DNA of 23,646 bases from a virus, in IMG/VR virus record IMGVR_UViG_3300038424_000586, positions 1 through 23,646 of that record. The stretch is one strand, 5' to 3'. This document shows, piece by piece, positions 4,382 to 19,573 of the stretch. The notes below the pieces were generated by a model that worked only from the letters and a program-made list of their open reading frames with translations, had not been told where the DNA came from and did no database searches. Position 1 is the first letter of the stretch. Each line of letters begins with the position of its first letter. Position numbers and translations under genes: made by a program.

Positions 4382-4421
4382 TTGACAAATGTAGAAAAAT
4401 TCTCTATATTCTCCCTGTCAA
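4382..4421 (+). promoter_or_regulatory. Early rightward promoter and likely operator region
   Basis: TTGACA (4382-4387), a 17-base spacer and TATATT (4405-4410), driving the Cro-like gene and the transposase operon. TGTCAA at 4416-4421 mirrors the -35, and on the minus strand it gives TTGACA for a weaker repressor promoter with no good -10. The short AGAGAAT-type direct repeats around 4397-4413 (minus strand) are candidate operators. Overlapping divergent promoters between repressor and Cro genes are the standard lysis-lysogeny switch layout. Confidence 0.75.
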
Positions 4422-4463
4422 CTTTTTGCAACGGTATCATAACAAATTAAGGCCAAAGAAACA

Positions 4464-4664
4464 ATGCCGACAACCCTCCGCGAACCGCTTCACATCACTG
4501 TCAAGAAATTGATGCTCGAAAAGGGTCTTCGTCAAAAAGACCTCGTGAAAAAAATCCGCGTGGACGCGAGCTATGTATCCAGAGCCCTCGCCGGAGAACG
4601 TCCGAGACTTCTCGCGGAGTTGTACGCCTACGTGAAAGCCTACGCCCCGAAGAGAGCCGCATGA
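4464..4664 (+). CDS. Cro/Ner-like small DNA-binding protein
   Basis: 66 residues with one helix-turn-helix: ITVKKLMLEKGLRQKDLVKKIRVDASYVSRALAGERPR, so the HTH covers about residues 10-48. It is the first gene of the early operon, opposite the repressor, which is the position of Ner in Mu and Cro in lambdoid phages. It probably turns down the early and repressor promoters. There is a weak AAGG about 10 bases upstream of the ATG. Its stop overlaps the next ATG as ATGA at 4661-4664. Confidence 0.7.
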   Translation: MPTTLREPLHITVKKLMLEKGLRQKDLVKKIRVDASYVSRALAGERPRLLAELYAYVKAYAPKRAA

Positions 4665-5080
4665 AAATGACAACAGACGTTCACGCCACACCATCGGCGC
4701 CGCCCTACGAATGCGGCGTCTTTGAATGCTCAATCGGCGAGTTAATAAGGAACACCAATCTCATCCTATGCAACGAGCGGGGCGATGCTCTCTTCTTTTT
4801 CGACCGCGATGAGGCCGGCAGCCCGATATTCCTCGTCTCGCCGATTGAGCCCCGCCACCGTGCATCGGTCAAGCGTTGGCAGAAGAGAATCCCCTGGGAG
4901 GATTACTCCTACTGCACGGGCGACGAGAAGGATTTCTTGATTCCCCGGGGCCGCGTCCGCCGGGCCTGCCGAATGCTCGGATTGACCCTCAAAAAACCAG
5001 CTCAGACCGAAAAACAGGTCTTGGCCTATCAGCGCAATGCCGCGAGTTTGAGACGCGCCGCGAAAGCCCCAACAGTATAG
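4661..5080 (+). CDS. Early-operon protein of unknown function
   Basis: 139 residues, translationally coupled to the Cro-like gene by ATGA. The N-terminal half carries ECGVFECSIGEL and LFFFDRDEAGSPIFLVSPI, a small mixed alpha/beta domain by eye. The C-terminal ~40 residues are basic (RGRVRRACRMLG, RRAAKAP), suggesting nucleic-acid contact. I do not recognise the family. Its place ahead of the transposase suggests a regulatory role, as inference only. Confidence 0.6.
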   Translation: MKMTTDVHATPSAPPYECGVFECSIGELIRNTNLILCNERGDALFFFDRDEAGSPIFLVSPIEPRHRASVKRWQKRIPWEDYSYCTGDEKDFLIPRGRVRRACRMLGLTLKKPAQTEKQVLAYQRNAASLRRAAKAPTV

Positions 5081-9801: not shown

Positions 9802-10175
9802 CCCTCATAGCAGGATACGTCCTCATCGTCCTATTGGCCATATACGCTTGGCACCGCCTTGTCAGCCACAACAAGAAGAGCGGTAGCCTCGACCTTCAGC
9901 TCGAGATAGAGATGTTGCGTAAGGCTCGCATCATGTTCCCGGAAGCAAGTAGTGACATTGTCGCGCTCGATGCGTTCTACCAGCACACCTTCCGCTCAAT
10001 GCTCATTGCTCAAAAGGAAGGCAACAGAGCGTGGATAGAATTGAAGCGCCAGTCCATCGCGATCTACAACGCCAAGAACCGCGCCATCATCGAGGCGGTC
10101 CGCTTTGAGGAAACATATATCTCGCCGTTCTCTCACGAGGCGGCACATCCAATCATTCCATTTCAAAGGAGTTAA
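9798..10175 (+). CDS. Small single-pass membrane protein
   Basis: 125 residues. Residues 3-18 (LIAGYVLIVLLAIYAW) form an N-terminal membrane helix, followed by a cytoplasmic-looking helical domain (LDLQLEIEMLRKARIMFPEAS ... LIAQKEGNRAWIELKRQ). There is an ATGA overlap with the GemA-like gene. No known family recognised. Its position directly before Gam might suggest an early host-takeover role, but this is speculative. Confidence 0.6.
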   Translation: MTLIAGYVLIVLLAIYAWHRLVSHNKKSGSLDLQLEIEMLRKARIMFPEASSDIVALDAFYQHTFRSMLIAQKEGNRAWIELKRQSIAIYNAKNRAIIEAVRFEETYISPFSHEAAHPIIPFQRS

Positions 10176-15346: not shown

Positions 15347-15541
15347 ATGACGATTGCAAAAAATCTGACAGGCATCGAACTGCGAGAAGACGAGCAGGGC
15401 CATTGGCTCTACATCACGGCCGCGGATGGGCATCAGGTCATCATCAACATTGAAGAGCATTGGTGGGGTAACTTCCACACCAAGAGAACCGTCCAGCAAT
15501 GGGCTGATGAACAAATTCGCGCAGCGTTGAAGGCCGGCTGA
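15347..15541 (+). CDS. Small hypothetical protein
   Basis: 64 residues starting MTIAKNLTGIELRED, one base after the previous stop. A small alpha/beta domain by eye (HWLYITAADGHQVIINIEEHWWG ... VQQWADEQIRAALKAG). ATGA overlap with the following gene. No family recognised. Confidence 0.5.
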   Translation: MTIAKNLTGIELREDEQGHWLYITAADGHQVIINIEEHWWGNFHTKRTVQQWADEQIRAALKAG

Positions 15542-16119
15542 TGCTCAGATTACTCCTCGGCTTCCTGCTTTTCCACGCGAATCGCGATCCGCTCGAGAAG
15601 AAATCGTTCTACGCCATCAAGGAGCGCCTCCTGCGAAGGTACGGGAAGAAGGTCGGCGCCGACGTCCAGCACCTCGCCGGCGTCAGATGCAACCGCTGCG
15701 ACCGGGGCAGACATTGGCACTGGATCTACGACTGGCACGGATTCGGTTACGAATCTTGCTGGCACTGCGACGGGACCGGATGGTATAAGCCGGAGCGGTG
15801 GGTACTTCTTCTGAGGATTCAGGTCGGCGGCCATATTTTCCATCGCCCCGTCTCGACGGCATACTACGAATGCTGGCTGCCGCCCACGGTCCGCGCGCGC
15901 GTGCTCGATGGCTACGTCAAGCATCCTTCGAGCCCATTTCATCTCAGCCGTGAATGCTGCTTGTGGCTCTATCTTTTCTTCGACCGTGAGCGATTTCGAA
16001 AAGAGATGCGCCTCGGGATCGGCTGCGAGCACTATTTCACGCCGTTCGTCGCCTGGCAGAATTATCTATTCCTCCTGCGGCAAGATTGGCCGCATGTTCA
16101 CATGCTGGACTGGGACTGA
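15541..16119 (+). CDS. Zinc-ribbon protein of unknown function
   Basis: 192 residues. CNRCDRGRHWHW ... CWHCDGTGWY (residues ~50-80) pairs two C-x-x-C sites, the second with the C-x-x-C-x-G-x-G of DnaJ-type zinc repeats. The remainder is rich in aromatic residues and histidines (HRPVSTAYYECWLPP, HSS..HLSRECCLWLYLFF). No enzyme motif recognised. It lies near the end of the early operon. Confidence 0.55.
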   Translation: MLRLLLGFLLFHANRDPLEKKSFYAIKERLLRRYGKKVGADVQHLAGVRCNRCDRGRHWHWIYDWHGFGYESCWHCDGTGWYKPERWVLLLRIQVGGHIFHRPVSTAYYECWLPPTVRARVLDGYVKHPSSPFHLSRECCLWLYLFFDRERFRKEMRLGIGCEHYFTPFVAWQNYLFLLRQDWPHVHMLDWD

Positions 16120-16126
16120 GAGTTTT

Positions 16127-16327
16127 ATGCCCGACGAATCCAAATTCCGGGAGCTGCTCGCTGTGCTCGTGAAGCTCGAATCGTCGAAGCGTCACTGCAA
16201 CGTCGAAATTCATTTCGACGGAAAGCGGTTCCACTGGTCAGTCAAGTTCGGCGGACTGCGCGCCTCCGAGTTCAATCTCGCGCAGCAATTCCCGCCCAGA
16301 AACACGTCGGAAGAGACTGGGCATTGA
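16127..16327 (+). CDS. Small hypothetical protein, last gene of the early operon
   Basis: 66 residues starting MPDESKFRELLAVLVKLESSK. A helix is followed by strands (CNVEIHFDGKRFHWSVKFGGLRASEFNLA). The start lies 7 bases after the previous stop, with a poor ribosome binding site. Its 3' end overlaps the -35 of the promoter at 16324. Function unknown. Confidence 0.45.
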   Translation: MPDESKFRELLAVLVKLESSKRHCNVEIHFDGKRFHWSVKFGGLRASEFNLAQQFPPRNTSEETGH

Positions 16328-16352
16328 TTTGATGCCAAGAATTAATTATATT
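16324..16352 (+). promoter_or_regulatory. Promoter for a candidate small RNA
   Basis: TTGATT (16324-16329), 17-base spacer and TATATT (16347-16352), the same -10 and spacing as the other phage promoters. The predicted start, about 16359, lies just before the long stem at 16365. Confidence 0.65.
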
Positions 16353-16358
16353 CTTTCG

Positions 16359-16490
16359 TTCAAACACGCTGTCGGTGCTCCGTTCTCTACGAGCGGCTGT
16401 ACCGGAAGGAAGTTCCGAGACGATCGGGGCAACCTTCCCGTCTCCGCGAGGAACGGGACGCCGACAGTGTGGCGTGAACGAGGGTGCCTC
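16359..16490 (+). ncRNA. Candidate phage small RNA with a 20-bp-class stem
   Basis: The arm at 16365-16387 (CACGCTGTCGGTGCTCC...) pairs with 16448-16471 (...GACGCCGACAGTGTG) over about 21 positions. Three of the pairs are G-U or U-G and would be mismatches on the other strand, so the structure points to plus-strand RNA. Inside, GAAGG (16394-) can pair with CCTTC (16432-). A small GAGG-GTG-CCTC hairpin followed by TTTCTT (about 16480-16496) could end the transcript. The reading frame across it resembles nothing. It may be a regulatory RNA or a long leader of the late operon. Ends are approximate. Confidence 0.5.
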
Positions 16491-16515
16491 TTTCTTCCGG
16501 GCGCCGCCCTTCCGA

Positions 16516-16544
16516 TTGATTTGCAGAAAGAATTGTTGTAAATT
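16516..16544 (+). promoter_or_regulatory. Possible rightward late promoter
   Basis: TTGATT (16516-16521), 17-base spacer, TAAATT (16539-16544). The -10 is weaker than in the other phage promoters, so it may need an activator, as Mu late promoters do. It lies directly before the structured leader of the terminase operon. Confidence 0.5.
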
Positions 16545-16563
16545 AATGCTGTAACCCCAGGCC

Positions 16564-16687
16564 GTAGCCCCAGGCTTCAGCCTGGGGAATCGGGATTATC
16601 GATTAACGAGTCCCGCTTCTGAGATCTGGCGATGAGCTGGTCCCCTCCCAGCGCGTTGCCTAATCAGAAGTGGGACTCTTTTTTTTT
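16564..16687 (+). ncRNA. Structured leader of the rightward late operon (attenuator / put-like element)
   Basis: Hairpin 1 is CCCCAGGC-TTCA-GCCTGGGG (16568-16587), preceded by GTAG so it also fits a REP. The linker GGGATTATCGATTAA (16592-16606) follows. Hairpin 2 pairs AGTCCCGCTTCTGA (16609-16622) with TCAGAAGTGGGACT (16664-16677), 14 bp including one G-U. Its loop contains GCTGG/CCAGC. U9 follows at 16679-16687. The terminase operon ATG is 16 bases later. As drawn, hairpin 2 is a convincing intrinsic terminator placed inside the leader. It shares linker and stem sequence with 3128-3196 on the minus strand. Confidence 0.7.
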
Positions 16688-16702
16688 ATCGGGAACAACG
16701 CT

Positions 16703-17140
16703 ATGGCTCACAAAACAGAGCGCTTGGAAGCTCGAAGATTGTACGTCGAGGAAGGCAAATCCATCCGCGAGATCGCGGCCACTCTCTCGCTGAACGAAAA
16801 AACCGTGTACCGCTGGTCCACCGAAGACGCGTGGGAGAACGAACGCGCATCGATGGCGTTCACCGGCATTTCTACTGTGAAGAACTCCCTGCTCCTCGCG
16901 GTCCGCGCAATGGAGAAGATGGTCCAGGCGAAGGAGATCAACGCCCGCGAGGTCGACGCCATCATGAAGTTGATCAAGGGTGCCAAGAGCCTTTCCCGCG
17001 ACATCGACAAACGCGGCAACATCCTCCTCGGCGTCGGCGAGCTGATCGAGTTCCTGCGCGAATCCCATCCCGAAAGCCTGGAGCAGCTACAACCCTTCCT
17101 CGTCGAGTTCGGCGGCTGGGTGAAAAGGAAATATCCATGA
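16703..17140 (+). CDS. Terminase small subunit-like HTH protein (DUF1804-like)
   Basis: 145 residues starting MAHKTERLEARRLYVEEGKS, with GGGA about 8 bases before the ATG. Residues 8-45 are an HTH (RRLYVEEGKSIREIAATLSLNEKTVYRWSTEDAWENER), the DNA-recognition domain typical of phage small terminases. The rest is helical (SLLLAVRAMEKMVQAKEINAREVDAIMKLIKGAKSLSRDID) and would form the oligomerisation part. It is the first gene of the late operon. The large subunit follows one gene later. Confidence 0.75.
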   Translation: MAHKTERLEARRLYVEEGKSIREIAATLSLNEKTVYRWSTEDAWENERASMAFTGISTVKNSLLLAVRAMEKMVQAKEINAREVDAIMKLIKGAKSLSRDIDKRGNILLGVGELIEFLRESHPESLEQLQPFLVEFGGWVKRKYP

Positions 17141-17481
17141 CAGACGAAGCACCGAGCATAAAGCCGTCGTCTCAAACAGAGTTCGACCTCGCAAGCCTGA
17201 ACCCGCGGATCTCTTCTGTTATAATCCGAGGCCAGAACTTCAAAGCCCTCGAATTCGATTGTCCGCTTGGTTGCGGATTTACACATTACGTGCCGTTCCA
17301 TGCGGCCGCTCCTATAAGAATTGGTGATAAGATCGCTGTGTGGTCCGCCTCTGGGCGGTTCGATGACCCACTCAAACTCAACATTTGCTATGAGCTCCAG
17401 TTCGAGCCGAGTTACTCCAGTCCGATCGAGAAGCCACACTTGCACTGTTGGATCTCCTATGGAAAATTGAGGCTTGTATGA
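17137..17481 (+). CDS. DUF6527-like small protein between the terminase genes
   Basis: 114 residues, ATGA-coupled on both sides. FDCPLGCGFTHYVPF and the C-terminal LKLNICYELQFEPSYSSP ... HLHCWISYGKLRLV resemble the DUF6527 pattern, with a Cys-x-x-x-Cys block, a later 'HPS'-like strand and a C-terminal HxWI-x-x-G-K. Elsewhere these proteins accompany ubiquitin-like conjugation genes; none is near. Its role in packaging is unknown. Confidence 0.5.
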   Translation: MTDEAPSIKPSSQTEFDLASLNPRISSVIIRGQNFKALEFDCPLGCGFTHYVPFHAAAPIRIGDKIAVWSASGRFDDPLKLNICYELQFEPSYSSPIEKPHLHCWISYGKLRLV

Positions 17482-19163
17482 GGCCTGTCACCTCCCAGCG
17501 CGAGTTCGAGAAGCAATGGTCTGACCTGATCAACCAGATCAGGACCAAGGCGACCGCGTTCCCGAGGGACTCGATTGAAAAGCGGGAGGCGCGTAAGAAA
17601 CGCGCGCGAACGGACAAGTTCTACTTCGCCGCGATGTACTTCCCACATTACATCCAGCTCGACGAGAAGTACCTCCGGAGCGTGCTGAAGATCCCGGAAA
17701 AGAGTCCTCTCCTCATCCCTCCGGATGCGGAGATCGATTGGGTTAAAGCCGGCTTCTCTCCCGACCATAAGAAGTTTTTCGAGCTCACCGAGCTCAGGAA
17801 CAAGTTTACCATCCTTGCCGCGTATCGTGAGTCCTCCAAGGATACCCTCCTCAGCAAGATCGACGTCATCCACAAGATGATCTTCGAGGAGATCTGGTAC
17901 GCGGTCGTCGTCGCTTTCTCGCATGAGCATGCGGCTACAAAGGTCATTCCCGTCCGGCTCGAATTCGAAAACAACGAGCGTTTGAAAAACGATTTCGGCG
18001 AGCTCAAAGGCAGCATAAAATGGGAAGAGGATGAGATTATCATTTCAAACGGCAGGAAACTCAAGGCTTTCGGCCGCGACGAATCGCTCCGGGGCGAGGA
18101 GAACTTTGGCCACAGGCCCGATTGGATACTGCCGAACGACATCGAGGACCCGACCAAGACCACGAACCCCGCACTCATCCTCAAGTACGTCGATTCAATC
18201 CGCCAGGATGTGCTGAAGTCCGTCAACTCACCGCGTTGGGGCGCGATCCTGCTGTGCAACTACGTGAGCAAACAATCGATCGTTCACGAGCTCCTCACCG
18301 GCGAGAACACATCTCACTTTGACAAGCAGATCTTCCGGGCGCTCGTCCCGAACGAGAAGAGGACCGACGAAGACCGCGAGATCGCGCGCCAGGCCCGGCT
18401 GCACAAGTTCCCGGACGGCTGGAAGTCCGCCTGGGAATTCCGCCATCCGACGCTCCGGCTGCTGCAGGAACAAAAGGACGATCCCGATACCTTCGACGCG
18501 GAGATGATGATGAGGCCGAAGGACAGGAAGAGCAAAAAGTTCAAGGACACTGATTTCAAGTATTACACGCAGCAGCAGATCGCCGGGATTGAGATGATTT
18601 ACTATACCATGATCGACCCCTCGGCGAAGGAGGCCGGCGATTACAAGGCCATCACCACGCTTGGGGCTCCGATCAAGTCGAAGGAATTCCGGCTCTATGT
18701 CATCAACGCCTGGATTCAGCAAGCCTCGATCGACGCCATGATCGAGGAAACCTACCGCGATTTCGAGCTGCACCGGCAGAAGCTGATCGGAGTTGAGATG
18801 ATCTCCTTTGCATCCCTCCTCGAGCGCGAGTACATGCGCCTGATGAAAGAGAAAAAGAAGCCGCTCCCGATCTACAAAATCGAGCATGTGGACCCGAAAG
18901 ATGCCGTGATCGAAAGCCTGGTGCCCCTCGTGCGCTCCGGCATCATACTGTTCGACACACAGCAGGGTGACCAGGCGCTGCTCATTAGGCAGCTGAAGGC
19001 ATTTCCGGACAGAACTCCCGTCGCTCGCGGCGGCATCGGCGATGATGGTCCCGACGCCCTCGGCAAATGCGTCCGGCTGGTCCAGGATTTCCCGTACGGA
19101 ATCGGCGTCGATTACCAGACCGTCGAAAAACGCCAGGCCGCATTCGGGAGAGGAGCGTACTGA
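17478..19163 (+). CDS. Terminase large subunit (Mu gp28-like)
   Basis: 561 residues (Mu gp28 is 551). It is the ATPase-nuclease that drives headful packaging. The ATPase P-loop region is degenerate: AYRESSKDT with Lys121 replaces the usual G-x-x-G-K-[ST]. Walker B-like RPDWILPNDIED has Asp221 and Glu223. The C-terminal RNase-H-type nuclease shows MIDPSAKEAGDYKAI with Asp380, and GDDGPDALGK with Asp522/523 and Asp526. The ATG overlaps the previous stop. In Mu-type phages the enzyme cuts outside the phage ends, packaging flanking host DNA. Confidence 0.88.
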   Translation: MRPVTSQREFEKQWSDLINQIRTKATAFPRDSIEKREARKKRARTDKFYFAAMYFPHYIQLDEKYLRSVLKIPEKSPLLIPPDAEIDWVKAGFSPDHKKFFELTELRNKFTILAAYRESSKDTLLSKIDVIHKMIFEEIWYAVVVAFSHEHAATKVIPVRLEFENNERLKNDFGELKGSIKWEEDEIIISNGRKLKAFGRDESLRGEENFGHRPDWILPNDIEDPTKTTNPALILKYVDSIRQDVLKSVNSPRWGAILLCNYVSKQSIVHELLTGENTSHFDKQIFRALVPNEKRTDEDREIARQARLHKFPDGWKSAWEFRHPTLRLLQEQKDDPDTFDAEMMMRPKDRKSKKFKDTDFKYYTQQQIAGIEMIYYTMIDPSAKEAGDYKAITTLGAPIKSKEFRLYVINAWIQQASIDAMIEETYRDFELHRQKLIGVEMISFASLLEREYMRLMKEKKKPLPIYKIEHVDPKDAVIESLVPLVRSGIILFDTQQGDQALLIRQLKAFPDRTPVARGGIGDDGPDALGKCVRLVQDFPYGIGVDYQTVEKRQAAFGRGAY

Positions 19164-19464: not shown

Positions 19465-19573
19465 TACGGCCTCGACATTGAGTCTTTCAAACAACGTTCG
19501 AACGTTCCATGAAATTAATTCTGGGATGACACTGATACTGGTCCTATTCCTGCAATTAATCATGGAGAGCAAC

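Follow-up and report, generated by a model that had tools for sequence, protein, structure and literature searches.

The 23,646 bases of phage DNA analysed here (the window) make up an entire IMG/VR record, and they raise the question of what is encoded between the early and the late genes, after the gene of a 66-aa protein (16127-16327) and before the leader and genes of the DUF1804/terminase operon. The initial annotation had seen no protein-coding pattern in this interval and had proposed either a stand-alone regulatory RNA or an attenuation domain that would come first in the late leader. By gene content, the window reads as a Mu-like transposable phage: its gene products include a MuA-type transposase, a MuB-type ATPase, Gam, DUF1804, a terminase, a D12 adenine methyltransferase, a portal and a minor head protein. 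A protein composed of KTDKTQTG(K/L)xR-type repeats, possibly a fibre-like protein, is encoded at 372-1322 on the minus strand.

The small protein encoded at 16127-16327 has no Pfam or PHROGs match; in relatives it measures 58-83 aa, contains one invariant Trp and, in the Mu-like ones, adjoins the RNA described below. The leader of the DUF1804/terminase operon (window 16530-16690; L004 5430-5540; L008 5400-5500; L022 5340-5470) contains a promoter and a conserved TTATCGCGGTTATCCGATAACAAG-like segment (clear in L004, L008 and L022), and several relatives present a strong terminator 5' of the first gene of the operon. These leader features suggest that the late genes are under antitermination control.

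Promoter, fold and relatives of the RNA gene

The features of the locus discussed in this and the following section are, all on the plus strand:

16324-16352 (+): promoter TTGATT-N17-TATATT
16358-16377 (+): putative 5' decoy arm, a1 (GTTCA, 16358-16362) and b1 (16365-16377), based on stem covariation and on copies of the arm at target genes of relatives
16425-16435 (+): 5' strand (b) of the closing stem of the core, pairing with 16482-16492
16436-16458 (+): hairpin with the GNRA tetraloop GCGA, stacked directly on the closing stem
16459-16479 (+): putative antisense strand, b' (16459-16471, loop of the small core hairpin) and a' (16475-16479), based on core folds and matching to the phages' own leaders
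16482-16494 (+): 3' strand (c) of the closing stem, then a U-rich tail, the probable 3' end of the RNA

To gather relatives, we used the DUF1804 and terminase proteins encoded next to the RNA as queries, which led to related Mu-like phages. In L004, L005/L006, L008 and L022, a similar element is present beside the same small gene despite greatly differing sequence. A covariance model (R1) built only from these elements, with the window left out, matches the window at 16358-16499 (31 bits, E 1.8e-6) and, in a search of 391 genomes, also recovered L052, L053, L054 and L056. R2, a model of the other subtype, recovered L022 and L053 in turn and led to the new members L064, L065, L070 and L071; the core model (R3), with L065 and L071 outside its training set, matches both of them (30 and 48 bits, respectively) as well as L089. 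Separately built models cross-match one another's members, and the family now comprises 14 distinct members, which reside in Mu-like and other prophages of Bacteroidota. No Rfam family was matched when the window and the members were scanned.

R1 detected no member in the related phages L007 and L023; L007, which has no model match, carries at the same place (4416-4535) another structured element with two interleaved inverted repeats. Weak model matches in L055, L072 and L073 were judged false or doubtful, and L088 is ambiguous: its doubtful core-model match (1500-1575, 38.6 bits) lies on the opposite strand, 5' of another adenine methyltransferase-like gene. A pattern search for TGAACAAGNGTTGCYCG in viral contigs gave, beyond L005/L006, matches that show no such RNA, because this 'motif' really corresponds to a conserved pairing. 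In L004 (5060-5085), L008 (4943-4962), L022 (5008-5030) and L052 (1490-1510), the RNA gene contains at its 5' end two or three copies of GTTCAAA at intervals of about 10 bases.

The promoter was found as first described, with TTGATT at 16324-16329, a 17-nt spacer and TATATT at 16347-16352. It is the sole promoter-like site within 15500-17500, and is weak as lone evidence, since shuffled sequences yield 0.7 such sites in the same region; it becomes significant because a TTG-N20-TAnnnT box is located 5-15 nt 5' of the RNA in 11 of 13 members (0.25 expected from shuffles). The 142-nt transcript folds with -70.5 kcal/mol, compared with -52.5 ± 3.7 for shuffles (z -4.8; 0/200 as good), and the minus strand folds less well (z -3.1). 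No conserved reading frame was seen across the RNA. The RNA gene is real, and the reading as a stand-alone regulatory RNA is supported by the promoter of its own, by a conserved fold specific to one strand, by compensatory changes among relatives in the stem originally named (see below) and by a position that moves freely relative to neighbouring genes.

Two alternative pairings and a conserved core

The 21-position stem reported initially exists: 16365-16377 pairs with 16459-16471 and the pairing extends inwards, G-U pairs included. Its 3' strand corresponds to the antisense strand (b', a') and its 5' strand to the decoy copy (b1, a1). In the 5' arm, segment P0 precedes P1, corresponding to a1 and b1, and these are paired to a' and b' with covariation. 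The outer helix of 5 bp is GTTCA/TGAAC in the window and GTCTG/CAGAC, among others, elsewhere. The comparison with homologous phages suggested in the initial annotation revealed the compensatory changes it had sought, with 8 pairs of the 13-bp helix changed on both sides among members.

That annotation missed a second helix, exclusive with the first, and with it the antisense logic. This closing helix (16425-16435/16482-16492) encloses a 65-nt core and measures 10-12 bp across members, in variants such as GGGCAAC/GTTGCCC, GGCCAAGTAT/ATACTTGGCC and GGATTGAGTTT/AAACTCAATCC; among 11 members, 10 of its 12 pairs have changed on both sides. The segment 16471-16488, previously read as a small hairpin plus TTTCTT, is better taken as the 3' strand of this conserved long-range helix. 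A U-rich tail follows the closing stem in nearly all members.

In an alignment of four members, 93.9% of cells are paired and the covariation score is 0.640 (0.295 shuffled); with eleven members, these values are 89.4% and 0.595 (0.268 shuffled). Slid versions of the structure drop to 37-51% paired cells, and for both helix sets the compensatory counts lie above those of every slid version and of each of 500 shuffles. Because the structures were chosen by inspection, the counts are somewhat biased in their favour; the model matches on untrained members are free of this bias.

Folded alone, the cores of all 14 members are predicted to form the closing stem, a hairpin with a GCGA, GTGA or GCAA tetraloop stacked on it, and a second hairpin whose loop holds b', the 3' strand of the 13-bp helix. 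Covariation supports no more than three pairs of this second hairpin. The a' segment (GAACA, AGACA, TGACA or GTCA) is unpaired in most folded cores. The linker from the outer helix to the second helix, about 3 nt, would be too short for both helix sets to form together, so that the RNA should have two mutually exclusive states. Rather than being the working structure, the 21-position stem would more probably serve to mask the antisense strand.

The sequence is dominated by inverted repeats, as would also be the case for a DNA-level element, i.e., a palindromic recombination or replication site without RNA role. We consider this very unlikely: G-U pairs are kept in the stems, the loops are of the GNRA type, one strand folds better in the window and the promoter lies at a fixed distance. 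An attC-like site was also considered and set aside.

Candidate target genes

The RNAs of this family look like distant relatives of the C4 immunity RNA of phage P1: each carries a strand that could pair with the beginning of one particular phage gene, in many cases that of a DNA methyltransferase, and would thereby probably switch this gene off. Sites resembling the decoy arm (a2/b2) are clear in seven members (L004, L022, L052, L054, L064, L071 and, from sequence reading, L089) and weak in L056, L065 and L070; none was found in L005 (a partial contig), L008 or L053. In L008, a complementary stretch of 13 nt (L062:3918) was discarded as a target, as it appears to lie upstream of the early promoter. 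When antisense strands and the phages' own leaders were permuted, 3 of 100,000 permutations gave pairings as good as the real ones.

These sites occur in two settings. In L064, L071, L054 and L089, the gene that immediately follows the RNA has copies of the decoy at its ribosome-binding site (e.g., GTCTAATTTCGATGG in the RNA gene and GTCTAATTCGATGGAGG 5' of the next gene). In L089, which was found after the hypothesis had been formed, the ribosome-binding site of the following gene carries TCCAAAAG and TTGAC, matching the prediction. In L004, L022 and L052, the site belongs to the D12 DNA adenine methyltransferase gene, which lies several kilobases from the RNA and whose leader contains GTTCGAAC followed by a b segment (CCAATGCAT, TCAGCACAC and TCCAGTACA, respectively); L056 has a weaker version of this site. 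L065 is the only member that precedes an antirepressor gene (Bro-N); a shorter decoy copy, a weak match, covers its start codon, which is the C4 arrangement proper.

Two sites (plus strand) come into consideration in the window:

4678-4699 (+): best candidate target, inside the start of the early gene 4661-5080; 20 of 22 positions complementary to the antisense strand
19495-19535 (+): leader of the D12 adenine methyltransferase gene; a2-like GTTCGAAC kept at 19496, b2-like match of only 6 nt

The methyltransferase site is thus degenerate in this phage. The site at 4678-4699, located 17 nt inside the reading frame 4661-5080, whose product has no family match, would form a duplex of 14 contiguous pairs, 2 mismatches and 6 pairs (-40.3 kcal/mol; runner-up -31.7). 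Among GC-matched control segments of the window, 4/200 reach this energy and 1/200 the gap to the runner-up, a moderate significance. The early gene at 4661 is thus a good candidate and the likeliest target of the window RNA, in trans, with less certainty than for the targets of the relatives.

We propose that, in the fresh transcript, the decoy arm would pair with the antisense strand and mask it; that the core would then be released by refolding or by 5' processing; and that the freed a' and b' would pair with the target leader, blocking translation. The targets would be the DNA adenine methyltransferase in Mu-like relatives and the next gene, once an antirepressor, in other prophages.

The two exclusive folds could also belong to a cis-acting leader, in which the decoy stem and the closing stem with its U-tract would switch termination before downstream genes. 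The folds do share strands, the closing stem is followed by the U-rich tail, and in several Mu-like relatives the small early gene comes immediately after the RNA. Such an attenuator nevertheless leaves unexplained why copies of the 5' arm occur at remote methyltransferase leaders, or at a ribosome-binding site behind the U-tract; moreover, the window RNA sits 3' of this small gene, and L057 has no phage gene 3' of the RNA. We regard this explanation as unlikely. The first annotation's more specific idea of an attenuation domain of the late leader is not supported by the position of the RNA in most Mu-like relatives, upstream of a small early gene and away from the late leader, nor by L057, a truncated element that keeps the RNA without any late genes. 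In L057, the RNA gene (9949-10062) is part of a truncated Mu-like element, from transposase to early genes only, beside a host suf operon.

The position 5' of terminase genes in the Mu-like members and in L054 could be that of a structural phage RNA, such as a packaging RNA. This is the least probable of the explanations weighed here: the RNA precedes the antirepressor gene in L065 and a RadC-like gene in L064, L057 is without packaging genes, and the strands that match gene leaders are variable in sequence.

Comparison with C4 RNAs

The arrangement of decoy, core and target is that of the C4 RNAs of phages P1 and P7 (RF01695; a1/b1 region RF03163), with which the family shares the order a1, b1, core and a2/b2 at a ribosome-binding site, and a core composed of a closing stem, a stacked tetraloop hairpin, a hairpin with b' in its loop and a single-stranded a'. 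When the annotated C4 RNA of P1 was folded in the same way, it gave the same core arrangement: the second loop contains b', and a' is left unpaired. In P1, a1 and b1 lie upstream of C4, and the start of icd carries a2 and b2. The core measures 60-78 nt here and 77 nt in C4. In contrast to P1 C4, where the tetraloop is UUCG, the family has GNRA loops; unlike in P1/P7, the promoter is directly 5' of a1, the decoy arm is near the core, and the targets are mostly not antirepressors and are genome-distant in the Mu-like members. The Rfam C4 model found no match in the window or the relatives scanned, even at E 5 to 10, and our core model does not match P1 C4. By model score the RNA is outside the Rfam C4 family, and the structural and positional features tested agree with C4. 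On this sequence evidence, we consider it highly probable that the RNA is a phage-encoded antisense RNA of C4 type.

In phage Mu, expression of the DNA modification gene mom is controlled post-transcriptionally by the protein Com. The control proposed here would likewise be a post-transcriptional control of a phage DNA modification gene, exerted by an antisense RNA instead of a protein.

The C4 precursor is processed by RNase P, and b' blocks the ribosome-binding site (PMC5320573). The C4-like Group 1 small RNAs of Acinetobacter baumannii are likewise phage-derived, with a C4 fold and variable a'/b' segments; unlike ours, they were found by the Rfam C4 motif and occur in a gammaproteobacterial host (PMC5320573). 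A survey from 2010 listed C4 only in Proteobacteria and phages (PMC2864571), and our literature search found no paper describing C4 in Bacteroidetes.

Tentatively, these RNAs might represent a widespread, undescribed Bacteroidota branch of the C4 type, in which exchangeable a/b segments have been retargeted between phages: towards the DNA adenine methyltransferase mRNA in Mu-like phages and, in the present phage, after loss of this site, towards an early gene 12 kb away, in trans. C4 has been known from phages of Proteobacteria. That its fold and its logic of decoy, antisense strand and target recur in a different phylum, where the C4 model does not detect them, suggests that temperate phages have long and commonly kept a gene silent in this manner. 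The family yields directly testable base-pairing predictions for uncultured phages and connects C4-type RNAs with the control of phage DNA methylation.
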